A DNA stretch of 64,000 nt from Xanthocytophaga agilis (lineage in GTDB: Bacteria > Bacteroidota > Bacteroidia > Cytophagales > 172606-1), in the NCBI RefSeq assembly GCF_030068605.1, contig NZ_JASJOU010000016.1, forward strand, positions 124,001 through 188,000, read 5' to 3'. A program made the position numbers and the translations under genes. The number at the start of each line of letters is the position of its first letter. Position 1 is the stretch's first letter. The notes under the pieces are model-generated. The model was not told the DNA's origin. It saw nothing but the letters and a program-made list of their open reading frames with translations, and searched no databases. Shown here piece after piece: positions 49,066 through 62,051 of this stretch.

Positions 49066-49245
49066 AGTACCCGAGGCCGGTACACAACCTAAAGTACAAA
49101 TTCTTGAAATACAATTAATTACGATACAATTTTAAGCATTGAGTGACAAATGGGTGACAAAAATAGATTGAAGGACATACCTTATACTTTTTGTTACCAT
49201 TTAATCTTTGCACATTAGATCTTTAACATATTTATCTGATATGCT
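49066..49245. other. possible left boundary of the accessory region
   Basis: This 180-base spacer contains GTACC-CGAGGCC-GGTAC, a 5-bp dyad around a GC-rich core (49067-49083), unlike the AT-rich surroundings. Further on TGACAAATGGGTGACAAAA has a short direct repeat (TGACAAA). Gene content changes here from housekeeping to defence and phage genes. No integrase or tRNA gene is visible, so an att site is only a guess. Confidence 0.3.
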
Positions 49246-51075
49246 CTATTTTTGCTTATACTGATATGCAAAATACTCCAAGAAAGTCCTATGTAGAAAA
49301 GTCACACCTCCACCTACGCGCTGCAAAAAGACCAATGCTATTGTCTTCTCAAAAAATCTTCTATAATTCAAAGGACTCTTTCGACTAAGAAAAGTTATAA
49401 GACGCAGGGTATAATGCTGGATAACGGCAAGTCCGCCGTACCAGAAGCCAAACGTAAATGTAGCAAAGTATGCAACAATTAAAGAAAGGTCAGACATCCA
49501 TGAGGCACCAGTTACGAAAGCAATTGAGTTAAATAATATTATTGAAGGTGCAAAACCGACGGTTATTGAAACAAATGCCGCATTTCTTAGAGAATTATGA
49601 ATACCCTGATTTAACTTTAATCTTTTCGCTTTATCGACCGGCACTGAAACTAACCCTTCTCTGATACAAAAAAGATATCCAAATACGAATGATTCAAGTA
49701 GTTTTACAGGAGATAATAATGCAGCAAAAAAAAAGCCTAATGTTATTCTCTCTCTACTATTGAAAGGACTTGCGATGCCTCTCTCTAATCCCTTAGCGGC
49801 ACCTTTCCAAGACCATGTTAGTTTTTCTACTACAGAAACGTCCAATTGAGACGATTTAGCTGCAAAAAACATGTTACCAAAATGTGCAAGTACCCCTCCT
49901 ATCAAAGCACAAAAACATCCCAAGATTGTTGCTAATACAAAAGCTCCTTGCATGGCATAAAAAAGAAATATTGCCCCTCCTATGATAAAAGCTGGAAGTA
50001 TACTCACAACAATTGTATACATTGCTAATTGCCAATTATTAGATAGCCAGGTAGGTTGCAACATTTCTAGATAAAACTCAGACTGATTATTCTTCTGCAT
50101 TTGAAATGCTATCCAATACAGTTCTCTAAGAATTATATCTTTACTTATTGCTTGAATTAAAGCAGGTTTTCTATCAAACATTCTTTTAATGAATGTTTCA
50201 AATAAATGTTTTCGCCTTTCTGAAATTGATTCGAAGTCTCTTTCTGTTAAGTCTTCATAAGTCAAACCTTGGTAAGCAAGACACATTACACTGACCATCA
50301 AAGGGGTTTTGGCTAATTCCTGCAATATTAAATCTTGGTTGAATACTCTTTCCAATCCATTAAATTTTTCAGCATTTTTAGCCAAGTATATTTTAACATG
50401 ATTAGTTGTAAGTGGTTGCAAGCATAAAGCAGCTGGAACGTTAAGTTTTTTCGTCAATGATATATACTCTTCTTGACGACAAGATACCACTAGGCCAGAT
50501 AGGCCATAGTCTCGCATAAAAATGTTAATTTCTTTTACACACATTAATCGGAATTCAGTCTTAACCTCATCAAGCCCATCTAACAGCATAAGGAGTCTGT
50601 GATTTTTGAGCCATTTTCTCGTATTTCTCTTTGGAGATAAATTTCTAAGACTCAATTCATTTACAATCCATTCAAAAATAGATGTTCGTTCATTGGCCCA
50701 TGAAGTAAGATTTAATATAACAGGAATAGGAAGGGTTGGATCTTGCTGAGCACAAGCTATTAATTCTTTTGCAAGTTGTAGAAGGGTAAAAGTCTTACCT
50801 GCTCCTGCAGCCCCAAGAATCAAAAGAAGCCTACCTTCTTTATTAAATATATCAATAACACTACTATTCTGTGAATATATTTTTTTTTCCTTTTGTGGAA
50901 TCTCAATAATATCCTTAAAAGAAGTATTACTTACTTCTTCTAAATTTACTTTATCGATCTCTAAATAGGTGTCAGTTAATAGAGAATGCTTTAATACGCC
51001 TTCAATCCAGAAGTGATTCACTCTCTGAAGTAGGTGTAACTGATTACTTCTATCCTCTAAATCAGAAGTACTCAA
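49246..51075 (-). CDS. NACHT-domain STAND NTPase with membrane C-terminus
   Basis: The annotated part (TTG start, 51075) is 609 aa. Walker A is GAAGAGKT at 88-95, Walker B LLMLLDGLDEV at 161-171, with SCRQEEY (sensor arginine region) near 200 and LAKTPLMVSVMCLAYQG near 255. Residues about 345-565 contain six or so membrane helices. This is the NACHT type of STAND NTPase, many of which detect phage. The frame is open without ATG or GTG for 47 more codons upstream, to the end of the preceding gene, so TTG is probably not the true start (see the -1 frameshift site). Full fused protein: 807 aa. Confidence 0.85.
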   Translation of the reverse strand: MSTSDLEDRSNQLHLLQRVNHFWIEGVLKHSLLTDTYLEIDKVNLEEVSNTSFKDIIEIPQKEKKIYSQNSSVIDIFNKEGRLLLILGAAGAGKTFTLLQLAKELIACAQQDPTLPIPVILNLTSWANERTSIFEWIVNELSLRNLSPKRNTRKWLKNHRLLMLLDGLDEVKTEFRLMCVKEINIFMRDYGLSGLVVSCRQEEYISLTKKLNVPAALCLQPLTTNHVKIYLAKNAEKFNGLERVFNQDLILQELAKTPLMVSVMCLAYQGLTYEDLTERDFESISERRKHLFETFIKRMFDRKPALIQAISKDIILRELYWIAFQMQKNNQSEFYLEMLQPTWLSNNWQLAMYTIVVSILPAFIIGGAIFLFYAMQGAFVLATILGCFCALIGGVLAHFGNMFFAAKSSQLDVSVVEKLTWSWKGAAKGLERGIASPFNSRERITLGFFFAALLSPVKLLESFVFGYLFCIREGLVSVPVDKAKRLKLNQGIHNSLRNAAFVSITVGFAPSIILFNSIAFVTGASWMSDLSLIVAYFATFTFGFWYGGLAVIQHYTLRLITFLSRKSPLNYRRFFEKTIALVFLQRVGGGVTFLHRTFLEYFAYQYKQK

Positions 51076-51175
51076 CGAATACTCAACCTTGAAATTCTTT
51101 ATGTTTTGCGAAGTTCTTATAATAATATCTCTGGCATTTACATGCTGAAAAGAGACAATTGGTTCATGAAAGATG

Positions 51176-51222
51176 GAGGCAGTTGAGAAAATGGTAGATT
51201 CTCTTGCCTCTATTACGGGTTT
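51176..51222 (-). other. putative -1 programmed frameshift signal
   Basis: On the minus strand the 151-codon gene ends GTA AAC CCG TAA. A-AAC-CCG (51222-51216) is an X-XXY-YYZ heptamer; slipping back one base gives AAA CCC and continues GTA ATA GAG into the NACHT frame. The spacer TAATA (5 nt) is followed by a two-part stem: GAGGCA (51210-51205) with TGCCTC (51181-51176), and GAGAA (51203-51199) with TTCTC (51189-51185), loop TCTACCATT. Heptamer, spacer length and stem all fit canonical -1 frameshift sites. A simple indel or sequence error is the alternative. Confidence 0.55.
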
Positions 51223-51668
51223 ACATGGTTGCCTCCACCAGCCCTTACATCATTTATTGTTATATCACCTTTAAATTCTCCTTTCTTTATCTTTACACCT
51301 GTTCCAGTAGATATTATTGTTCCGATTTTAAGCGAAGCAGCTTTTACTTCTTCAATATCCACACCTAATGCAGTTAAAGATTGGGTGTCATATTTTGAAA
51401 CTAGATCAAGAAGATGTTGTGACAATGCTAATATTTCAGAGTCATTTGCTACATTAGTTTCACTTAGATCTTCGGCTAACGAACTTTGTTTTATTTTTGA
51501 CTCAGGCTTGCTTTCGAGAGGCTGAAGATTTACATTTTTATATTTAGTAACGATTATATTTTTAATACCTTCATATGCGTCTTTGATAAGACTTTCCCCG
51601 GTTGGTTTAAGAGCAGCAGCAGCTCCTGCTGCCAATGCTGTAACAATAGAGCTAATTATAGGATCCAT
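51213..51668 (-). CDS. small N-terminal module of the NACHT system
   Basis: The protein is 151 aa. The N-terminal helix DPIISSIVTALAAGAAAAL is hydrophobic and small-residue-rich; a helical middle follows (ILALSQHLLDLVSKYDTQS). The end is beta-rich and glycine-rich (VKIKKGEFKGDITINDVRAG), like the junction segments found between effector-associated domains and NACHT domains in STAND proteins. By position it is the adaptor or effector-associated part of the NACHT protein, either separate or joined by frameshifting. The family name is inference. Confidence 0.7.
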   Translation of the reverse strand: MDPIISSIVTALAAGAAAALKPTGESLIKDAYEGIKNIIVTKYKNVNLQPLESKPESKIKQSSLAEDLSETNVANDSEILALSQHLLDLVSKYDTQSLTALGVDIEEVKAASLKIGTIISTGTGVKIKKGEFKGDITINDVRAGGGNHVNP

Positions 51669-51746: not shown

Positions 51747-51877
51747 ATTTAATAACTACCAGAACAAAAATTAGCTCTGGTAGTTATTGATTAAATCCCT
51801 TAAAACCCATGAAGTCAAAGAACATGACCCCTCAAAGTTGAGGAATTAGGATGACTCACTTTTGAGCCATCAAATAT

Positions 51878-52279
51878 TTATCTACTCTTATCTGTTTTCT
51901 TTTGGCTGCTTTTACGAGCATATCCATACCCTTCCTTCTCTGCAATGGCGTCAATCTTCTTTTTAGCATTGTTAGGCAGAAATCCAAAACGATGCATTTT
52001 CGTTAGTAGCTCCTCACAGTCAAAGCAGTAAACTTCTACCGTGTATTGCTTCTTTCGTTTGGGATCATACTCTCCAATATTTTTGAATTGAGACTGAAAC
52101 AGGCAGTAGTTGTCCCCTGTAATCACTACGGTTACAGGGAACGACAACGGATTGGGAAATAAAACTTTATCAGGCTTAAACTGTATCAGAAGATTGTGTC
52201 TACCTGGATTGTCTTCTATGATCTGGTAGACAACACCTGCCTTACGCAGCAGCCTTTTCAGATCCGGAAACGTGTTCAT
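51878..52279 (-). CDS. hypothetical protein of the accessory region
   Basis: From ATG 52279 the product is 133 aa and overlaps the previous gene by 38 nt. Beta-rich middle (FPVTVVITGDNYCLFQSQFK, YTVEVYCFDCEELLTKMHRF) and a basic C-terminal tail (YARKSSQKKTDKSR). No family recognised. It ends the leftward set that starts at 53533. Confidence 0.55.
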   Translation of the reverse strand: MNTFPDLKRLLRKAGVVYQIIEDNPGRHNLLIQFKPDKVLFPNPLSFPVTVVITGDNYCLFQSQFKNIGEYDPKRKKQYTVEVYCFDCEELLTKMHRFGFLPNNAKKKIDAIAEKEGYGYARKSSQKKTDKSR

Positions 52280-52952
52280 TAGGCTCAACCAGGGATTTAT
52301 AAACAAAGATAGCTTCCAGTATATCATTAAGAGGACGACTCATTTTTTGTATTTCCTGTACATCCCGCATTCTATCTCCCCGTATGATGGTTTGTAGAAT
52401 AATCGTAAAGTCTGAACTTAGCTTTAGCCTTTTACTTTCCAGTTTGTCATAATCTGGTTCTTTAAAGCCTGTAATTTCACTTACGAAGAAGCCAGCTACC
52501 TGTTTAGCTGTGTAGACAATAAAGTGTCCCTTTTGCCAATCGAAGTCAATAGGTTTTACTGGTAGGACAAAATCTTCGAACTCCCATGCTAATCTATCGT
52601 AATCTACATTACTGAGTCTGACTTTTTCAAAGGCTATTACTTTCAGCAAGGTTGTGTGTATGGTCTCTAACGTGGAATGAAAATTCTGTAAAGCCTTCTG
52701 TTCCGTTTCTCCATAAGAAAGAATCATTTTTTGTATTCTCTGCAACAGGAATGTATAGAGCAGGGAGTCCTTCCGTTCTTCCTCTATATCGGGTGCAGGA
52801 GAAGGCGCAGGACCTTCTGCTTCTACATCTGGAGCAGAGGAAGGGATAACAGGCATGGTAGCTTTAGATTCAGTTTGTGTAGGCTCAGCTTGTACAGCAC
52901 TGGCATTTTGTATAGTCTGAGTAGTTAAAGAATTTGATTTGGCAGATTTCAT
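52242..52952 (-). CDS. hypothetical protein with disordered N-terminus
   Basis: The protein is 236 aa. The first 60 residues are rich in Pro, Ala, Ser and Glu (PDVEAEGPAPSPAPDIEEER) and likely disordered. The rest is helical, with LYTFLLQRIQKMILSYGETE and FIVYTAKQVAGFFVSEITGF. Family unknown. It is third in the leftward set controlled from the operator region at 53545-53654. Confidence 0.6.
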   Translation of the reverse strand: MKSAKSNSLTTQTIQNASAVQAEPTQTESKATMPVIPSSAPDVEAEGPAPSPAPDIEEERKDSLLYTFLLQRIQKMILSYGETEQKALQNFHSTLETIHTTLLKVIAFEKVRLSNVDYDRLAWEFEDFVLPVKPIDFDWQKGHFIVYTAKQVAGFFVSEITGFKEPDYDKLESKRLKLSSDFTIILQTIIRGDRMRDVQEIQKMSRPLNDILEAIFVYKSLVEPNEHVSGSEKAAA

Positions 52953-52994
52953 GAGAGTGAAATGTTGTGATGTGAATAATAAGTGAATAGTAAA

Positions 52995-53315
52995 TTATTT
53001 TTGTCCGTCTACAAGATCCTCAAGTGCAGACATAAATCGATATAGCCTTTCAAACTGGTGGAAGTAGCCTTCAATAGTTGCCTCATTATCATATTGAGAA
53101 TTCAGATACAGATAGGATTGAGCTTTAAAGAGCAAGTCTTTATGTTCTCTGATTAATCCTGCCGTAGCGTCTGCATCTGCTTCTAGTAAAATATTAAGTA
53201 CATCTACTTTCTTCTTATCAAGGAAGTGGTTAGTAAGTAAGGACTGCTTTACTTTGCGAAAGGCTTTCTGTGAAGTTGATTCTGAAGCAGGACTTGGAGT
53301 TTCCATAATGAACAA
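52995..53315 (-). CDS. hypothetical helical protein
   Basis: The protein is 106 aa, charged and helical throughout (ASESTSQKAFRKVKQSLLTN, KKVDVLNILLEADADATAGL, HQFERLYRFMSALEDLVDG). No motif recognised. It lies 23 nt after the first gene of the leftward set. Confidence 0.55.
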   Translation of the reverse strand: MFIMETPSPASESTSQKAFRKVKQSLLTNHFLDKKKVDVLNILLEADADATAGLIREHKDLLFKAQSYLYLNSQYDNEATIEGYFHQFERLYRFMSALEDLVDGQK

Positions 53316-53338
53316 TAGATAAAGAGTGAATGAATGAT

Positions 53339-53533
53339 TTATAATGAGAATGATTGCATTAATATTTCTGTACTTTCAAAGCCAAGCAGACGGGCTACTG
53401 ATTCCGGCGCAAAGCTGATTAGGCCTGTTCGTTTGTTCTTGATGATATAAACTGAGTCGTTACCTGTAACATACTCATACACCCATTCCGTGGGTGTTTC
53501 ATCAATCAGTGCTATAGTTGCAGCTTCTGTCAT
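53339..53533 (-). CDS. small protein, first gene of the leftward accessory operon
   Basis: The protein is 64 aa. The C-terminal part VYIIKNKRTGLISFAPESVA, then RLLGFESTEILMQSF recalls the N-terminal domains of phage antirepressors (BRO/KilA type), where a short hairpin is followed by a helix. The start codon lies 11 nt from the nearest AACAC-N7-GTGTT operator. A role as Cro- or antirepressor-like protein is only a guess from position. Confidence 0.5.
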   Translation of the reverse strand: MTEAATIALIDETPTEWVYEYVTGNDSVYIIKNKRTGLISFAPESVARLLGFESTEILMQSFSL

Positions 53534-53544
53534 AAAACCAAAAC

Positions 53545-53654
53545 AACACTTTATTGGTGTTATATCAAGACATAAAAAACGCCCTTAAGAGGACATTACA
53601 AATGTAACACCATTTAAGTGTTGCATCCAAATATTATAACACTTTTTTTGTGTT
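53545..53654. promoter_or_regulatory. three operators AACAC-N7-GTGTT
   Basis: Three perfect dyads of identical form lie at 53545-53561, 53606-53622 and 53638-53654, with centres 61 and 32 bp apart. They fill the spacer between the divergent small gene (53533) and the HTH gene (53691). Same arms, same 7-bp spacing, different centres. This is the pattern of a phage-type control region, and the HTH protein is the likely ligand. Confidence 0.75.
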
Positions 53655-53690
53655 AATATTTGGGCATTTATTACCTTTGATTAAAAATCA

Positions 53691-53933
53691 ATGGCAAACG
53701 TGGATTTAGATAAACGATTAGAAATACTAGGACAAAAACTTGAAGAGTTTGGGATCTCTTACGACCGATTAGCACAATATTCAGGCAGGAGTAAGACCAG
53801 CATCTCAAAGATGTTTGGTAAAAATGACACCAAAAGATACAGGACAGAGGGGAATGTGGAAGCTGCAGAACAAGGATTCGAAAAGATAATTGAAGAGCTA
53901 CGACAAAAGATTTGTGGTAAAGCTTCCTTATGA
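53691..53933 (+). CDS. small HTH regulator, probably repressor of the accessory element
   Basis: The protein is 80 aa. A helix-turn-helix is visible at about residues 21-45: FGISYDRLAQYSGRSKTSIS with KMFGKND after it. The C-terminal helix (EAAEQGFEKIIEELRQKI) may serve dimerisation. It is divergent from the leftward gene set, with three AACAC-N7-GTGTT operators between, as expected for an autoregulating phage-type repressor. A terminator follows. Confidence 0.7.
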   Translation: MANVDLDKRLEILGQKLEEFGISYDRLAQYSGRSKTSISKMFGKNDTKRYRTEGNVEAAEQGFEKIIEELRQKICGKASL

Positions 53934-53967
53934 GCCATATATCATAAATTTTCAATAGTTATATAGC

Positions 53968-53997
53968 AAAATCCCCGTCTTAGTGATGGGGATTTTT
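53968..53997 (+). terminator. terminator of the HTH regulator gene
   Basis: AAAATCCCC / GGGGATTTT hairpin with T-run, 34 nt after the stop. Confidence 0.85.
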
Positions 53998-54134
53998 ACT
54001 TTTATAGCCTATATAAACTTTTCTCAAAGACTTATATAACAGATAAAGAGACAACCTGGTAATGTACAGGTTTAGCAAATAAGTTTTACAGACCTTAGAA
54101 AATACGGGAAAAATACCCTTAAAAAAGGGGGAAA

Positions 54135-54154
54135 ATACCCCATTCGTGGTATTG
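54135..54154 (+). promoter_or_regulatory. third ATACC-N8-GGTATTG site
   Basis: ATACCCCATTCGTGGTATTG has the same outer arms and near-identical centre as the sites at 35181-35200 and 51727-51746. It lies in a spacer (53998-54350) before the nuclease gene, about 200 nt from its start. The spacer holds no ORF that I can support. Confidence 0.45.
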
Positions 54155-54350
54155 TATACTTATTTGGCTTTACAGATATTGCATTTCACTGAACTTTAAC
54201 TGTAGTTTTTTTATATAAACTATCGCTTAACAACTTTTTCAGAAGGCGAATAAGCTTTCATTCTACCTTACAAACACCTGAATTCCTTTCTTTCAATAGC
54301 AGCCTATTGATTACACAACAATCGTATACATCTAATCCCATTCTTGTTTC

Positions 54351-55445
54351 ATGAGTGATTTTATTGACCTGATCAAAGTGATCGGAGAAAAGGTGTCTCG
54401 TCTCAAAGACCAGATTCAAACCGAAGAGGCAACCAAAAATGCATTTATTATGCCCTTCATTTCTGCATTAGGGTATGATGTATTTAATCCAATGGAAGTG
54501 GTCCCAGAGTTTGTAGCAGATATTGGTATTAAAAAAGGAGAGAAAGTGGATTATTGTATCTTCAAAGATGGGACACCAGTCCTGATTGTAGAGTGTAAAT
54601 GGCACGGAGAAAAGCTAGATGTACACAACTCACAGTTACACCGATACTTTCATGTAACCAAGACTCGCTTTGCCATGCTCACCAATGGCATTATCTACCG
54701 TTTCTATACTGATTTGGAAGAACCTAATAAGATGGATGAAAGTCCTTTTCTGGAATTCAATATTACAGATCTGAGAGAAAGTGTAATCAGTGAGTTAAAG
54801 AAATTTCACAAATCAGTTTTTAATGTAGAGGAGATCTTAAGTTCTGCCAGTGAGTTAAAGTATTCACGGGAAATTCGTAGTATCCTTTCCAGTCAATTGG
54901 TTTCCCCTTCTGAGCCATTTGTTAAATACTTTGCGTCTCAGGTATATAATGGACGTCTGACACCTAAAGTGATTGACCAGTTCAGTTCCATTGTCCGTAA
55001 AACATTTGCTCAGCTAATCAATGATAGTATCAATGAACGATTGAAGAATGCATTGACTACAGAGGCAACCCAACCTACGATAGAAAGGCCTGTAGCTCAA
55101 CCTCAACCAGAAGAACAGCCTATTGTAGATGACAAAGTGAATAAGGTAATTACCACACAGGAAGAGATTGAAGCCTTTTTTGTGGTAAAGTCTATTCTTA
55201 GAGGCAGCGTACGAAGCCAGCGTATTACCTATCGTGATGCCCAGAGTTACTTTGCAATCTTTATGGATGACAATAACCGTCGTCCTGTGTGTCGTCTATA
55301 TCTGGAAGGGAAGAAATATATCGGACTATTTGATGGAGAAAAGAAAGAGAACCGGCTTCCTATTGATACACTGGAAGATATTTACACATACTCATCCCAG
55401 TTAACAGAAGCAGCTCTGAGATATCCGGATGATGTGAAGAACTGA
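54351..55445 (+). CDS. orphan HsdR N-terminal-like nuclease
   Basis: The protein is 364 aa. The N-terminal half matches the HsdR-N domain of type I restriction enzymes: TEEATKNAFIMPFISALGYD, then the PD-(D/E)XK core KVDYCIFKDGTPVLIVECKW (about 61-83; D, then E-x-K) and HVTKTRFAMLTNGIIYRFYT. The C-terminal part (from about 270) is beta-rich (GSVRSQRITYRDAQSYFAIF). There is no helicase, HsdM or HsdS, so it is not a type I complex. It stands directly before the Pycsar-like operon and is probably a defence nuclease; this role is inferred. Confidence 0.78.
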   Translation: MSDFIDLIKVIGEKVSRLKDQIQTEEATKNAFIMPFISALGYDVFNPMEVVPEFVADIGIKKGEKVDYCIFKDGTPVLIVECKWHGEKLDVHNSQLHRYFHVTKTRFAMLTNGIIYRFYTDLEEPNKMDESPFLEFNITDLRESVISELKKFHKSVFNVEEILSSASELKYSREIRSILSSQLVSPSEPFVKYFASQVYNGRLTPKVIDQFSSIVRKTFAQLINDSINERLKNALTTEATQPTIERPVAQPQPEEQPIVDDKVNKVITTQEEIEAFFVVKSILRGSVRSQRITYRDAQSYFAIFMDDNNRRPVCRLYLEGKKYIGLFDGEKKENRLPIDTLEDIYTYSSQLTEAALRYPDDVKN

Positions 55446-55594
55446 TTTTTCATAAAAACGAAGCCTCAATAATAAATTGGGGTTTTATGATCTTAAAACA
55501 AGTCCATTTTTCATAGAGATACACTATTTGAGATATTAACAGAATCTTCATCATTTCATACATTACCAGGACACTCAGAACTTAATTCCTCTTT

Positions 55595-56171: not shown

Positions 56172-56945
56172 ATGCCGAACTTACTACAGATTAAAGACTT
56201 ACGTGAAAAATATAAATCAAATAAGGATGTTTCTGATAAGTCAATAAAACTTCTTACAGAAAGCTTTAATTCTCGGCCTTCTGATATAAAAGCGTATTTC
56301 CAACAACAAAGTGTGGATCCAAAAATTATTCAATACTTTGAGAATCAGAAATCTTCCGATGTCGTCCTTTTGTTCATAGACATTACTGACTTTTCAAAAA
56401 AATGTCTAAAAATGAATGCTGTTACCTTATCAAGGTATTTGGATGACTATTATGATATAGTTATACCTATTATTTATAGCCACGGAGGTGAGGTAGAGAA
56501 AATTATTGGAGACGGAATAGTTTGCCTTTTTGGAGAACCATTTCTTACAGGTGCTCAATCAACTTTTTTTCAAAATTCTGAATCTTGTGCTAAAGACATA
56601 ATTGCAGAACTAAAAGATACAGATAAGGAGGTAAAAATAGCACTACATGAAGGTACAATAATGTACTATAAAAATAAAACTCAAAACTATCCGGAATATA
56701 CTATGATTGGGCAGCCTTTAACGGAGCTTTTTCGACTTGAAAGTGAATCGCAAAATAACGCTATAAATTTTTATTCTCCTACTTCTTATGATAATATGCA
56801 CTGTACTAGTGGGTTAAATGCACACCCCGGAACTAATATCACAACCGCATTTTCTAGTTGGAATAAATCTAATCCAATCTCAATAACTTTGAAGGGAGTA
56901 ACCTATAGTCTTATGAAGACACTGACATGTACAAGCAAAATATAA
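56172..56945 (+). CDS. class III nucleotide cyclase, first of two (Pycsar-like)
   Basis: The protein is 257 aa. A cyclase homology domain lies at about 70-215. Both metal-binding aspartates are visible, in LLFIDITDFS and in KIIGDGIVCLFG. The transition-state arginine is kept in ELFRLESES, but the usual asparagine of the VN-x-A-x-RL motif is replaced (QPLTELFRL). It may thus need the second cyclase for a full active site. A beta-rich C-terminal tail follows. It starts a tight operon (12 nt to the next gene), pointing to a product signal for the membrane effector. Confidence 0.8.
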   Translation: MPNLLQIKDLREKYKSNKDVSDKSIKLLTESFNSRPSDIKAYFQQQSVDPKIIQYFENQKSSDVVLLFIDITDFSKKCLKMNAVTLSRYLDDYYDIVIPIIYSHGGEVEKIIGDGIVCLFGEPFLTGAQSTFFQNSESCAKDIIAELKDTDKEVKIALHEGTIMYYKNKTQNYPEYTMIGQPLTELFRLESESQNNAINFYSPTSYDNMHCTSGLNAHPGTNITTAFSSWNKSNPISITLKGVTYSLMKTLTCTSKI

Positions 56946-56957
56946 GTATTACATTAG

Positions 56958-57929
56958 ATGGACCTGCAAACACTTCAAGACATTAGCGATAATATTAAAG
57001 ATGTATTTGATACACAGTTCGAATATTCAAATACTAACCTGGTTCCTAATTATGAAGATACTAACTTAACATATGAAAGAGGACAAATTAAAAAAGGCAA
57101 AAGAATTAAAACATGTGTTTTATATATTGATATAAGAAACTCAGTTAATTTAAGTAAAGAGTCTCCTCGGGAATTTATAGGCCAACTATATACCGGCTTT
57201 GTGAAAGCAATGCTATTAGTTGCGGATTATCATGGAGGATATGTAAGAAATATTATTGGTGATAGAGTAATGGTTGTTTTCCCAACTTATGATTGCTGTA
57301 CAAGTGCGATTGAATGTGCAATATCTATGAATACGGTTGCGCATCATATTATTGCTGTTCATGCCGGAGTGAGAACATTTAAGTGTGGTATTGGTATTGA
57401 TTATGGGATGATGCGTGTATTAAAAACAGGGATTGTAAAACAAGGAAAAGATAGGACTTCATATAAGAACTTAGTATGGACAGGAAGAGCAGCTAACATT
57501 GCTTCTCGACTAACAGATCTCGCAAATAAAGCGATTCAACAAATAACCTATAAAGTTAGATATCAACCTCCTAGAAGAAGAAAGCTTATTAGATTCACCC
57601 CAAGTAGCCCTCTTTATTATATCCCATCCCCTGTAGAAGAAGAATATACACCTGAAAGTTTCTCTCAACAAATTGGTTGGACAGAACAATCAGGCTTACA
57701 ATTTTCTAAAGGCACCATATTAAACATAACAAAGATTGAAAAAGAAATCTCTTACAAACCGATACTAATTACGGGTTCCGTTTTCAGTGGATTAGTTGAA
57801 GAAAACGCTGAGCATGAATCTATTGCCAAAGGGTTCTGGGAAGAACAAAAAATAGGAGTTAAAGACTACGATGGCAAAGTATATGGCTGCAATCTGACAT
57901 GGAAGTCAGCAAATAAAATTCAATATTAA
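56958..57929 (+). CDS. class III nucleotide cyclase, second of two (PycC-like)
   Basis: The protein is 323 aa. All catalytic residues of class III cyclases are visible: metal aspartates in VLYIDIRNS and NIIGDRVMVVFP, and the asparagine and arginine in GRAANIASRLTD. Pycsar cyclases (PycC) make cCMP or cUMP on phage infection; this protein has their typical C-terminal domain, with KPILITGSVFSGLVEEN and VKDYDGKVYGCNL. Base preference cannot be read here. Upstream is a second cyclase lacking the asparagine, downstream a PycTM-like effector. Confidence 0.85.
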   Translation: MDLQTLQDISDNIKDVFDTQFEYSNTNLVPNYEDTNLTYERGQIKKGKRIKTCVLYIDIRNSVNLSKESPREFIGQLYTGFVKAMLLVADYHGGYVRNIIGDRVMVVFPTYDCCTSAIECAISMNTVAHHIIAVHAGVRTFKCGIGIDYGMMRVLKTGIVKQGKDRTSYKNLVWTGRAANIASRLTDLANKAIQQITYKVRYQPPRRRKLIRFTPSSPLYYIPSPVEEEYTPESFSQQIGWTEQSGLQFSKGTILNITKIEKEISYKPILITGSVFSGLVEENAEHESIAKGFWEEQKIGVKDYDGKVYGCNLTWKSANKIQY

Positions 57930-57946
57930 CTTAATAGAAGAACAAC

Positions 57947-58486
57947 ATGGAAGAACGATTAAGATATATTTTTGGTAATGTAAATGATTGGCTAAAGTTT
58001 GCTGAAACTAAGAATGGTGCACTAATTACTCTCAATGGCGCTTGTATATTTGGTATATTTCAAATAGAAAACTGGGGCAATATAAGTGATAACTTTGAGT
58101 TATGGACCAAATGGTTATTTGTGTCAAGCCTTGCCATAAGCACTGGGCTTGCCTTATTCTCATTTATGCCCTATACACGATCATTAAATGCTCAAAGCAA
58201 GTTAAATTCCGACAATCCATTAGATTTCAAATCGCTTAATTTTTATTTCTTTGGTCATATAAAATTTTTTGACGATAAAACATTTTTAGAGGTTCTATAT
58301 AAGGATACAAACACAAGCATTCCAAATCTATATCCAAAAACAGAAGAGTTTCTTGCAAGACAAATAATAGTTAATGCTCGAATTGCATCCAAAAAATATG
58401 GATATTTTGCATGGGCAATTAAATTTTGTGTACTAGGAATTGCAGCAACTTGCTTATTTGTATTAGGTAAAATCATCTTTGGTTAG
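57947..58486 (+). CDS. PycTM-like membrane effector
   Basis: The protein is 179 aa. The N-terminal motif NVNDWLKFAETKNGALITLN matches the Pycsar membrane effector family (PycTM), in which this segment leads into the first membrane helix (about 26-43). Further helices lie at about 58-81 and 150-178 (FCVLGIAATCLFVLGKIIF). On binding a cyclic pyrimidine nucleotide, PycTM proteins impair the membrane and stop phage spread. It begins 17 nt after the second cyclase gene, so the three genes form one operon. Confidence 0.85.
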   Translation: MEERLRYIFGNVNDWLKFAETKNGALITLNGACIFGIFQIENWGNISDNFELWTKWLFVSSLAISTGLALFSFMPYTRSLNAQSKLNSDNPLDFKSLNFYFFGHIKFFDDKTFLEVLYKDTNTSIPNLYPKTEEFLARQIIVNARIASKKYGYFAWAIKFCVLGIAATCLFVLGKIIFG

Positions 58487-58746: not shown

Positions 58747-61170
58747 TTATCCTCCTGTTTTATTGATTTTCCCTGTTGACTTGTTAATATAACCTACCAG
58801 TGCACCTCCTTCATCTGCAATCACTAACCTACCTGAGATAAATAGGTTTTCAATAGTTGAACCAATGGGTGTAACATTGGCATTTGTTCTTACTTCCTGT
58901 GTTCTTATAGCACTTGCAGTACTCCCACCAGAAGAAGATAAACCCGATTGTATAGATGCACTACTAGCACTCCCGCTACCAATACCACTCCCCATATTAG
59001 AAACGGCCCCTTTTACGTAAGCTCCCAACGCTACTAATGCAGTACCAGCTGCGATGGCTACATAAGGGTTTAGTGATTGTAAGCCTATCTTTATGCCTAA
59101 CATTGCCACTCCAAATCCAATTGTTAACTTACCTAGTTGCTGTGCCAAATCACCAACACTAGAAAGTAAAGCTTTTCCAAAGCCGTCAAACCCGTCTAAT
59201 CCTGCTATAGTTGCGCCTAATGCATCCCCAAAAGAAGCAATTGTATCTGTAGCAAATGCTTCGAGTGCTTGTTTCACACTTACTGAAAAAGCTTGTACAG
59301 TATCGGCATTACCCATCAGGTTTTCATTGAATGACTTTAGATAAGGTTCGGTTTCTATAATAGTTTTTTGGATGTTTTCACCCATTTTTGCGTAAACAGG
59401 TGAAATAACATCATCAGGTGCTTTAAAGGTTGTGTTGAAATAAGAGGTATCCAGTGTTGCAACTCCTGACTGATTCATATTTATACCTTTTGAACTCAAA
59501 GGAGTAACTGCTGTGGCTTTCAGACTTTTCAAGGCTGCAGCACCTAACGTATTATACTGACCAATCAACTTTTGTATGATAGTCGATTGAGGCTTTAAGC
59601 CCAACTCTATCAGGTTGACTATGCCTTTTTCAAGTATTCCTACCTTTTCCCCAATTACATCATAGGTACTACCAAAAGCCTGTGCTTTTAAATCGGTATC
59701 GGATAAATCTTTATTTAATGCTTTTAACGCATCTGCAATCTTTTGATTAGACTCACTGAGTAATGCAGCCGCTTTATTTCCGGACTCTTGAAGGCTTGCG
59801 TTTCTTTCTGCCAGGATCTTATCGATCGCTCGCATTTGTCCGTTTAATTGAGCCGCGACTGATCTGGCGGCGTCCTGATCAGTTCCAGATCCGGAACGTA
59901 AGATATCAAACTGAGACTGCCGGAACTCTTTACTCAGTTTATCCCGTATCTCTTTCAGCTTGTCTGATGCGGTTTTCTGGTATTTCTCCAAACTCACAGT
60001 AAAGGCTTTCATAGCTTCTTCACTCAGTTGTTGATTCTGTACAGCTTTTCCTGGATCTTCAGTTGAGGAGGCCACTATTACACCCCCTATAATAGCGGCA
60101 GGAATGGCAATTTTACCCAGGATACCCCAGGCGCCGTTTGCAGCTGTCTGAAGCGTAGTAAGGCCTGTAATAAGTGTAGGTATAGCTTTTGTGATGGCAC
60201 CAATACCATACAAAACCGGACCTGTCGCTGCTGCAATACCACCCATTACCAAAATAGTTTTTTGGGCTTCTGGTGTTAGTTGTGAAAAAGAAACTGCCAG
60301 CTCTTCAATCCATTTACCCAAAGCCTCTGTTTTACCCTGTATATCAAAGTTTTTATTGATAGAATCTCCCACTTTCGCCAAAGACTTATCAATCGTAGCG
60401 GATAGGTTGGTAAATGAGGTACCTAAGGATGTTGCGGCTCTGGGACCTTGTGAGAGTGCACCTATAATAGCATCGGTTATCTGCTTACTACTAACCCCTA
60501 TTTTGCGCAAATCTTCCGCACGTGCAGAGCCGAAGGTATCCTTCAATATCTTATTCACTTGTGGCAAAGCATCTTTGATAATATTCAAATCTTCACCAAG
60601 AGGTAAATCAGTATTGGCTAGTTGCTGAAAGCCATAGATCACTCGCTCTAATTCCTGATTTCCTCCTCCAACCAAAGCATTGGCATTTGCCAGTTCAGTA
60701 ATCCACTTGCGAGCATCTTCAGCAGATTTACCAATCGCTTGCAGGTTGATGGATGCTTTTACTGCCTGATTCAGTGACAAGCCTGGTAATTTGGATGCAG
60801 CTTCGAGTTTTTTAAATTCTTCTTCTCCAGCTTCAGCAGATTTTGAAGCAGAAATCAATCCCTTTTTCAGTTGGTCTAACTTTGCATAGGAATTAACTGA
60901 AGCAGTAGCCAATCCTGCCAGTGGCAAACTAACACCAACAGTCAACGCTTTACCAGCACTCTGCATAGTGTCAGCCAGTCTTCCAAAGCCTTGACTCCAC
61001 TTAGCATTAAACTTATCCAGATCCTGATAGTTACGGGCCAGATTAGTATTCACACTGGCTGAAAATCCTCTCAATGCATCCTGGCTTTTTTTGATAGCAG
61101 ACTCAAATTGTTGTGAATCTCCTGATATCTTTACTGAAAGCGCCGCTAAAAGTTCATTTACTCCTGCCAT
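58747..61170 (-). CDS. phage tail tape measure protein
   Basis: The protein is 807 aa. The N-terminal half has the tape measure pattern: helical coils, GRLADTMQSAGKALTVGVSL, SLPLAGLATASVNSYAKLDQ and LPLGEDLNIIKDALPQVNKI. Hydrophobic segments lie at about 305-360 (TILVMGGIAAATGPVLYGIG) and about 670-725. The C-terminus is glycine/serine-rich. It fixes tail length and passes DNA into the host. For a Siphovirus-like tail it is on the short side. It lies 1 nt after a 149-aa gene, in an operon running off the right edge. Confidence 0.88.
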   Translation of the reverse strand: MAGVNELLAALSVKISGDSQQFESAIKKSQDALRGFSASVNTNLARNYQDLDKFNAKWSQGFGRLADTMQSAGKALTVGVSLPLAGLATASVNSYAKLDQLKKGLISASKSAEAGEEEFKKLEAASKLPGLSLNQAVKASINLQAIGKSAEDARKWITELANANALVGGGNQELERVIYGFQQLANTDLPLGEDLNIIKDALPQVNKILKDTFGSARAEDLRKIGVSSKQITDAIIGALSQGPRAATSLGTSFTNLSATIDKSLAKVGDSINKNFDIQGKTEALGKWIEELAVSFSQLTPEAQKTILVMGGIAAATGPVLYGIGAITKAIPTLITGLTTLQTAANGAWGILGKIAIPAAIIGGVIVASSTEDPGKAVQNQQLSEEAMKAFTVSLEKYQKTASDKLKEIRDKLSKEFRQSQFDILRSGSGTDQDAARSVAAQLNGQMRAIDKILAERNASLQESGNKAAALLSESNQKIADALKALNKDLSDTDLKAQAFGSTYDVIGEKVGILEKGIVNLIELGLKPQSTIIQKLIGQYNTLGAAALKSLKATAVTPLSSKGINMNQSGVATLDTSYFNTTFKAPDDVISPVYAKMGENIQKTIIETEPYLKSFNENLMGNADTVQAFSVSVKQALEAFATDTIASFGDALGATIAGLDGFDGFGKALLSSVGDLAQQLGKLTIGFGVAMLGIKIGLQSLNPYVAIAAGTALVALGAYVKGAVSNMGSGIGSGSASSASIQSGLSSSGGSTASAIRTQEVRTNANVTPIGSTIENLFISGRLVIADEGGALVGYINKSTGKINKTGG

Positions 61171-61631: not shown

Positions 61632-62051
61632 TTAGTGATCTCTTCCATACAATAGATCTTCAAAAGGGTCTCTCTCATCAGATGGCTTTGCAACACCAAT
61701 TTTCTGCATAGTTTGTGGACTAATTAGAAGTTGTGTAGCAAACCCGCGTACAGTCCCTGCCAGAATATTCATCCGATTTAGATTTCGTGTATCTGACAGA
61801 TCTGATTGTAGAGCTGTTAGGTAGGCATCTTGCGCCAGTATCAATGCCTCTACCATCCATAGGTTATGCATGTAGAGAAGGCCTTGCTCAATAAGAAATT
61901 CACAGATGCTTTGCCACATCAAATGGTGAATTTTGGGAATAGTGGCAACAGGCGTAGGAACCTGTCCAATAATCCCTGTACCTTCTAACTGTGGACGTTC
62001 CCTATCTGGCCTGTATGTCCCTCTAGCTATCTTTAATTCTTTGTTTTTCAT
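61632..62051 (-). CDS. P27-like phage terminase small subunit
   Basis: The protein is 139 aa. The start KELKIARGTYRPDRERPQ is the P27 signature (a basic ..GTxRxDR.. segment). MWQSICEFLIEQGLLYMHNL (WxxxxxxLxxxGLL), and the end TVRGFATQLLISPQTMQKIG with its final helix also fit. It would recognise phage DNA and start packaging with the large subunit. It is unusual that no large terminase or portal gene lies next to it; instead two small genes lead directly to the tape measure gene. Confidence 0.65.
   Translation of the reverse strand: MKNKELKIARGTYRPDRERPQLEGTGIIGQVPTPVATIPKIHHLMWQSICEFLIEQGLLYMHNLWMVEALILAQDAYLTALQSDLSDTRNLNRMNILAGTVRGFATQLLISPQTMQKIGVAKPSDERDPFEDLLYGRDH

Follow-up and report, generated by a model that had tools for sequence, protein, structure and literature searches.

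A probable three-operator immunity switch in a satellite-like integrative element of Xanthocytophaga agilis

What does a small helix-turn-helix (HTH) protein control when three copies of one palindromic site separate its gene from a divergent neighbour? This question is raised by a locus in a 64,000-nucleotide stretch of the Xanthocytophaga agilis genome (contig NZ_JASJOU010000016.1, positions 124,001 to 188,000; hereafter the window), in which AACAC-N7-GTGTT occurs in three exact copies within 110 bp (53545-53654; copies at 53545-53561, 53606-53622 and 53638-53654). The expected number is 0.06, and three copies were reached in none of 100 shuffles. A first-pass annotation of this DNA had described three perfect copies between divergent genes, and both their positions and the two open reading frames on either side are confirmed. 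In a 19-bp form of the site, TAACAC-N7-GTGTTA, operator 3 is perfect, and operators 1 and 2 carry one outer mismatch each. The features are:

53339-53533, minus strand: 64-aa first leftward gene, family c18; no regulator match by profile
53544-53562, unstranded: candidate operator 1, 10 bp before the leftward start codon
53605-53623, unstranded: candidate operator 2, between the predicted -33 and -7 boxes of the leftward promoter
53637-53655, unstranded: candidate operator 3, over the predicted -33 box of the repressor promoter
53691-53933, plus strand: 80-aa predicted HTH repressor; AlphaFold2 pLDDT 88.8, middling HTH fold matches

The whole genome (9,768,099 bases in 66 contigs) holds eight such sites when each, listed on both strands, is counted once. 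Three form the switch cluster and the other five are all singletons, so that several sites occur together only here, as the annotation had anticipated. A reversed control pattern has 12 sites, and a role as a regulon motif was rejected on this comparison (8 sites in 9.77 Mb versus 12); the motif is at chance level genome-wide, which argues against a wider regulon and leaves only the switch cluster unusual. The region is probably the immunity (dormancy) switch of a phage-satellite-like integrative element of about 20 kb, in which the repressor would act on three operators to keep a leftward operon off.

The 20.1-kb element and its sisters

The switch lies within a 20.1-kb element at tRNA-Leu. 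From the right, the gene order is tyrosine integrase, a 292-aa protein without a match, an excisionase-like HTH protein (phrog_66, 3.5e-6), a D5-type primase and a DUF6371 protein, followed leftward by the small terminase-like protein, tape measure, Pycsar genes, HSDR_N gene, repressor, leftward operon and NACHT gene. The features to the left and right of the switch are:

49066-49080, unstranded: attL core AGTACCCGAGGCCGG, 15 bp; repeated at 69147-69161 (outside the window), 3' end of tRNA-Leu(CAA)
49246-51075, minus strand: NACHT ATPase, defence-type cargo; Pfam NACHT 1.8e-8, weak PADLOC matches only
51213-51668, minus strand: 151-aa protein adjoining the NACHT gene; no Pfam match, one weak PHROG match of unknown function (0.0099)
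51878-52327, minus strand: leftward operon gene, 149 aa; 95% identical in sister element G1C55
52242-52952, minus strand: leftward operon gene, 236 aa, family c2 by gene comparison
52995-53315, minus strand: leftward operon gene, 106 aa, family c3; the probable start is an inner ATG
54351-55445, plus strand: HSDR_N-type nuclease-like protein, cargo; Pfam HSDR_N 5.9e-16, 99% identical in G1C55
56172-58486, plus strand: Pycsar-type defence cargo, two cyclase-like genes and then a PycTM effector; PADLOC PycC 7.9e-11 and 1.4e-43, Pfam PycTM 2.6e-9
58747-61170, minus strand: tape measure protein; Pfam TMP_3 3.3e-15, phrog_1533 2.7e-15
61632-62051, minus strand: small terminase-like protein; phrog_83 6.3e-7, no Pfam match, Terminase_2 proteins in four sisters

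The Pycsar-type set (56172-58486) has an extra cyclase-like protein, and the tape measure gene stands without other recognised tail genes in the element. The NACHT system, which had been placed beyond the leftward genes, does lie inside the element, probably as a separate transcription unit and not as part of the leftward operon. Together with the 151-aa gene (49246-51668), it sits between attL and a conserved block at the end of that operon. This block (51806-51895; 67-90 bp, with small hairpins) is common to four elements and lies close to the left tRNA end in three sisters; it is possibly an end structure, an RNA or a terminator.

Relatives of the repressor occur in six of eight genomes of the bacterial family, with five in G001 (same genus) and two in G000 (the window's own genome). 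Among 395 genomes of a class sample, only the window's own had any, at an E limit of 1e-5 and with at most 14 candidates scored per genome among the matches listed. Genome contigs yielded no locus to a single-sequence query and eight loci to an alignment query, and neither viral_contigs nor phage records held a relative. By sequence, the repressor family was thus found only in one family of Cytophagales in these searches.

Twelve loci were compared gene by gene, with the right end of G0C4 left out. Integrase cluster c5 is present in five elements (the window's own, G1C60a, G1C60b, G1C55 and G1C1), primase cluster c12 in three (the window's own, G1C60a and G1C55), and Terminase_2 proteins in four sisters from two species (G1C60a, G1C55, G1C1 and G0C4), these being the only Terminase_2 matches in G001 (3) and G000 (1). 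Clusters c7, c8 and c9 are kept in the same order among the sisters, not all three in every one. Attachment cores were found for G1C55 (tRNA-Ser; 22.9 kb) and G1C1 (tRNA-Arg; 27.0 kb), and no credible core was found at the other six loci tested. Cargo differs between elements, with type III restriction-modification (R-M) parts in G0C4, a type ISP enzyme in G1C1 and Pycsar in the window's element. Near 171.5 kb of G001:C2, the left flank and attachment core of the window's element are followed by a different integrase gene, which indicates that the site is used by other elements too; an empty attachment site in G001 was not borne out there.

The element does not look like a whole phage. Among the element genes scanned with Pfam and PHROG profiles (most genes, though not every small ORF), none matched a capsid, portal or large terminase. 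The phrog_2 search gave weak matches only and failed to detect a genuine large terminase elsewhere in this genome (phrog_38, 4.2e-85), which makes the phrog_2 result unfit as proof of absence. That terminase belongs to a separate prophage-like region of the window's own genome (G000:C2, about 354-372 kb), which also has a portal (phrog_33693, 1.3e-18), a minor tail match and a serine recombinase. This region is a candidate helper of the element.

The element could instead be a decaying prophage, its switch the leftover of a prophage immunity region. A tape measure gene is kept, and satellites are described as lacking structural genes (PMC13376191). TMP_3 matches are confined to the window's element, G1C55 and G0C4 (the last below cut-off), so the element set is not uniform; a tape measure in all sisters was rejected, the 730-aa genes that occupy this position in G1C60a and G1C1 having no TMP_3 match, and the first 509 residues of a 928-aa protein of G1C60b had no Pfam match. 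Against decay, the four sisters of two species keep Terminase_2 and shared genes in order, and c5 recurs in five elements; the same genes would hardly be left in sisters by independent decay. A decaying prophage is accordingly judged rather unlikely.

Operator triads, promoters and the leader hairpin

The 200 bp upstream of 14 loci, the window's own included, were searched for operator triads, and a three-site layout was found at ten (the window's locus, G1C1, G1C55, G1C60a, G1C60b, G5C84, G7C311, G7C270, G7C453 and G0C4). To this extent the tripartite phage-type switch of the first-pass annotation stands, as a control region in which the repressor and operators of a mobile element lie among divergent genes; its Cro or antirepressor partner does not. 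In a best-triple test on either strand with 18-bp sites, none of 200 shuffles equalled the triad at any of the ten loci (at 19 bp, one of 200 did for G7C453). No credible triad is left at the other four. G7C264 was dropped despite 0/200, as it has GC-rich repeats unlike the other sites and an in-frame stop; G1C33 (192/200) was dropped on inspection by eye, the region of operators 2 and 3 being missing; and G6C110 (83/200) and G4C1 (112/200) are distant loci with no triad. A stricter symmetric half-site test with 60 shuffles gave 0/60 at five of the ten loci and weaker values at G1C60a (14/60), G5C84 (6/60), G0C4 (5/60), G7C311 (4/60) and G1C60b (1/60), at which the two tests pick partly different sites. 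They disagree on the first site of G5C84 and G7C311, which the best-triple test places 75 bp from the second. Spacing between operators 1 and 2 is 58-62 bp at nine loci by the symmetric test and 60 bp in G1C60a by the best-triple test; between operators 2 and 3 it ranges from 31 to 57 bp and varies with the sites used.

Bacteroidota promoters follow the consensus TTTG/TAnnTTTG. The predicted promoter boxes at all loci were placed by this consensus, and in the window the predicted signals are:

53578-53597, minus strand: leader hairpin and T-run, at the predicted start of the leftward transcript; flagged terminator-like
53599-53606, minus strand: leftward -7 box TACATTTG (TAnnTTTG); its TA is common to operator 2
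53628-53631, minus strand: leftward -33 box TTTG, 21 bp from the -7 box
53647-53650, plus strand: rightward -33 box TTTG, within operator 3
53672-53679, plus strand: rightward -7 box TACCTTTG, by the same consensus
53968-53996, plus strand: terminator-like hairpin after the repressor gene; 12 pairs, T-rich tail

At seven of the ten loci, the TA of the leftward -7 box forms the first two bases of operator 2, which starts 6 bp from the start of CAAAnnTA, and a -33 CAAA or CAA lies at 19-21 bp; at the other three, the -7 box is off by one base or carries a 1-bp shift. The rightward -7 box TAnnTTTG starts 11-32 bp before the repressor start at nine of ten loci, with a -33 TTTG or TTG at only five of these nine. 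Operator 3 covers the -33 zone of the repressor promoter in some loci, extends 2 bp into the -7 box at G5C84 and G7C311, and lies upstream of both rightward boxes in G1C60a and G0C4. Because its position shifts between loci, autorepression may not be universal.

Conservation of the leader hairpin was an unexpected result. Directly after the leftward -7 box, a hairpin followed by a T-rich run is more stable than mononucleotide shuffles at all ten loci (p 0 to 0.034), and its stems change letters while keeping their pairing (GTCC/GGAC, GTGC/GCAC, GTGG/CCAC). In the window it is also terminator-like, and the stretch as a whole has 9 terminator-like sites versus 3.4 in shuffles. The hairpin could on these grounds be the main control, a terminator after the start site that is relieved by a phage or element factor. 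Such a role is improbable, however: the stem has only 4-8 pairs, A residues separate it from the T-run in some loci, G7C453 has a longer leader with a different fold, and the hairpin begins within a few bases of the predicted leftward start site. A stabilising 5' stem or a DNA site would account for it just as well.

The predicted repressor, its candidate operators and the gene opposite

Repression by the 80-aa protein, which the annotation had named as the likely repressor, remains the favoured reading. The AlphaFold2 model is predicted to consist of an HTH and one long last helix. In Foldseek, its best rows are C.Esp1396I (best E 0.17, prob 0.99), and all E values exceed 0.1. A VIA fold comparison reached Z 8.3, with many HTH families tied; the fold neighbours from the two comparisons (C.Esp1396I, HipB, Stl, POU and HNF-1 domains, and the repressor of a phage-inducible chromosomal island, PICI) are all middling and alike. 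The PICI repressor structure 6h49 gave Z 6.1 and rmsd 4.8 over 73 aligned residues, a score common to many HTH folds, and Pfam matches fell below cut-offs. A cysteine near the C-terminus is invariant in all 11 repressors of an alignment of 11.

Half-sites differ between loci: TAACAC in the window, TAACAT in G1C1, TAACAA in G1C55, TAAAAC in G1C60b, G5C84 and G7C311 (the last also TACAAC), TATCAC-like in G7C270, TACTAA in G7C453, and asymmetric TAAGAA/TAACAC types in G0C4 and G1C60a. The three TAAAAC-like loci, from three genomes, have T-V-[AG]-L-V in common in the presumed recognition helix. With operators entered by hand and chosen between the two site tests, operator profile is correlated with protein distance over ten loci (Mantel r 0.38, p 0.008), with recognition-helix columns (r 0.39, p 0.004) and with the rest of the protein (r 0.32, p 0.03), and operator length (19 versus 18 bp) is correlated with the protein (r 0.62, p 0.007). 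The correlation with the rest of the protein means that relatedness alone accounts for part of the signal.

In G001, no two of the four elements that retain an intact triad have the same operator. Co-residence and covariation suggest that elements within one genome, differing in operators, would coexist in a cell as heteroimmune neighbours; in the window's own genome, the TAACAC half-site is partly common to both elements, which makes cross-recognition possible there. DNA identity between the window and G1C55 is 91% over 51815-52957 and 93% over 54100-55574; a further 67 bp match at 53274-53340, and blastn gave no match between them at 53341-54099. The two repressors share 41% identity, and the operators are unlike in both half-site and length. 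Window and G1C1 have the 64-aa gene in common (93% DNA), with repressors 42% identical. On these alignments, the switch is swapped as a cassette between near-identical flanks of two elements, those of the window and G1C55.

Three operators between divergent genes might also signify a lambda-type two-repressor switch, flipped by DNA damage, with CI represented by the 80-aa protein and Cro or an antirepressor by the 64-aa protein, the role that the annotation had offered for the latter. Several operators for one putative repressor do lie between divergent predicted promoters, and CI of TP901-1 is reported to repress at three operators as well (PMC7250872). The 64-aa protein, however, matches no Pfam or PHROG profile at E 0.1, occurs at two of the twelve loci compared, and is the second leftward gene in sister G1C1, where it is 97% identical. 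No opposing Cro-type DNA-binding protein was recognised at the locus, and the 64-aa gene, whose product is not Cro-like by profile, is a replaceable member of the operon. The repressor model also lacks a separate cleavage or oligomerisation domain; 80 aa leave no room for an SOS-cleavage domain, and a direct response to DNA damage, the trigger that had been suggested, is therefore not predicted, although an indirect one may occur. A lambda-type switch is thus highly improbable.

Slighter still is the chance of an R-M controller (C protein) timing the neighbouring HSDR_N-type gene, a reading to which the Foldseek rows and that downstream gene lend some colour and which was rejected on terminator, linkage and conservation: other HTH folds score as well as C.Esp1396I, the hairpin at 53968-53996 separates the two genes, no methyltransferase is recognised beside the HSDR_N gene in the window, HSDR_N (cluster c19) is found at 2 of 12 loci while switch and leftward operon persist without it, and the linkage and co-transcription with an R or M gene expected of a C protein are not indicated by the sequence.

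Proposed mechanism and comparison with known systems

The satellite-like immunity switch starts from the observed site positions, their overlap with predicted promoter boxes, their conservation and covariation, and the element ends. The 80-aa protein, probably as a dimer, would bind all three operators. At operator 2, which overlaps the predicted boxes, it would cover the leftward promoter and repress it; at operator 1, it may block elongating polymerase or steady binding at operator 2 across the spacing of about 60 bp; and at operator 3, over the predicted -33 box, it would limit its own promoter in the window. The leftward operon would thereby stay off while the element is dormant. As trigger, a phage protein is more probable than SOS cleavage, whether the phage is incoming or resident. 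A precedent is offered by analogy with Stl of the SaPI islands, a satellite repressor that is described as displaced by helper proteins and not cleaved (PMC6092414, PMC6695447).

More tentatively, the elements may constitute an undescribed satellite family of Cytophagales that carries its own small terminase (and in some cases a tape measure) to re-use a helper, exchanges a heteroimmunity cassette of repressor, three operators and hairpin leader between conserved flanks, and in this way lets several elements with differing defence cargo coexist in one cell. No study describing them was found among the titles and abstract beginnings of open-licence PMC articles. With about ten naturally occurring pairs of repressor and operator from a single small protein family, and several of them in one cell, specificity drift and the number of related islands per genome could be put to a test. 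The pairs also mark a set of islands with defence cargo in a bacterial family that has been little studied, and the promoter and operators predicted to silence these islands can be named.

Three operators and divergent promoters recall the CI/MOR switch of TP901-1 and lambda-type switches. In contrast to these, no second regulator is recognised opposite, the repressor has no further domain, and half-sites differ among sisters. C.Esp1396I is similar in size and predicted fold, and structure 4i8t, by its title, places it on a 19-bp duplex, the operator length seen here. The present gene differs in being uncoupled to an R-M pair and kept with an unrelated leftward operon. Small integrative elements without a full virion gene set of their own include cfPICI, PLE, PICMI and P4. 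Likened to these in general features, the present element stands apart in its Cytophagales host and its small terminase-like and tape measure genes. The first three are named among other satellite families in PMC11389934.

A further likeness is to SaPI Stl and the PICI repressor Rpr, where an integrative element that carries integrase, primase and terS has an HTH master repressor next to divergently transcribed genes. The HTH of Stl is reported to resemble C.Esp1396I, and a modelled Stl site has TATCTC palindrome halves (PMC6695447, PMC6092414). In contrast, the protein described here has 80 aa without the further domains of Stl, would act on three candidate operators, and belongs to an element with a tape measure gene whose integrase, primase and small terminase-like genes are at the far end on the opposite strand. 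By definition, int in a PICI shares both side and strand with the master repressor, and xis and replication genes are divergent (PMC6092414); here int, the xis-like gene and primase are at the far end on the minus strand, with the repressor on the plus strand. Like PICIs, the element has an integrase and a specific attachment site (a tRNA-Leu core, with tRNA-Ser and tRNA-Arg in two sisters), with tRNA cores as just named. Of the gene content expected of PICIs (a replication gene and terS without large terminase or capsid genes), primase and a small terminase-like protein are present, no large terminase or capsid was matched in scans of most genes (phrog_2 missed a large terminase elsewhere in this genome), and a tape measure is present. 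The gene set fits a satellite, but the gene order is not that of PICIs and the tape measure is unusual, and the element is therefore called satellite-like.
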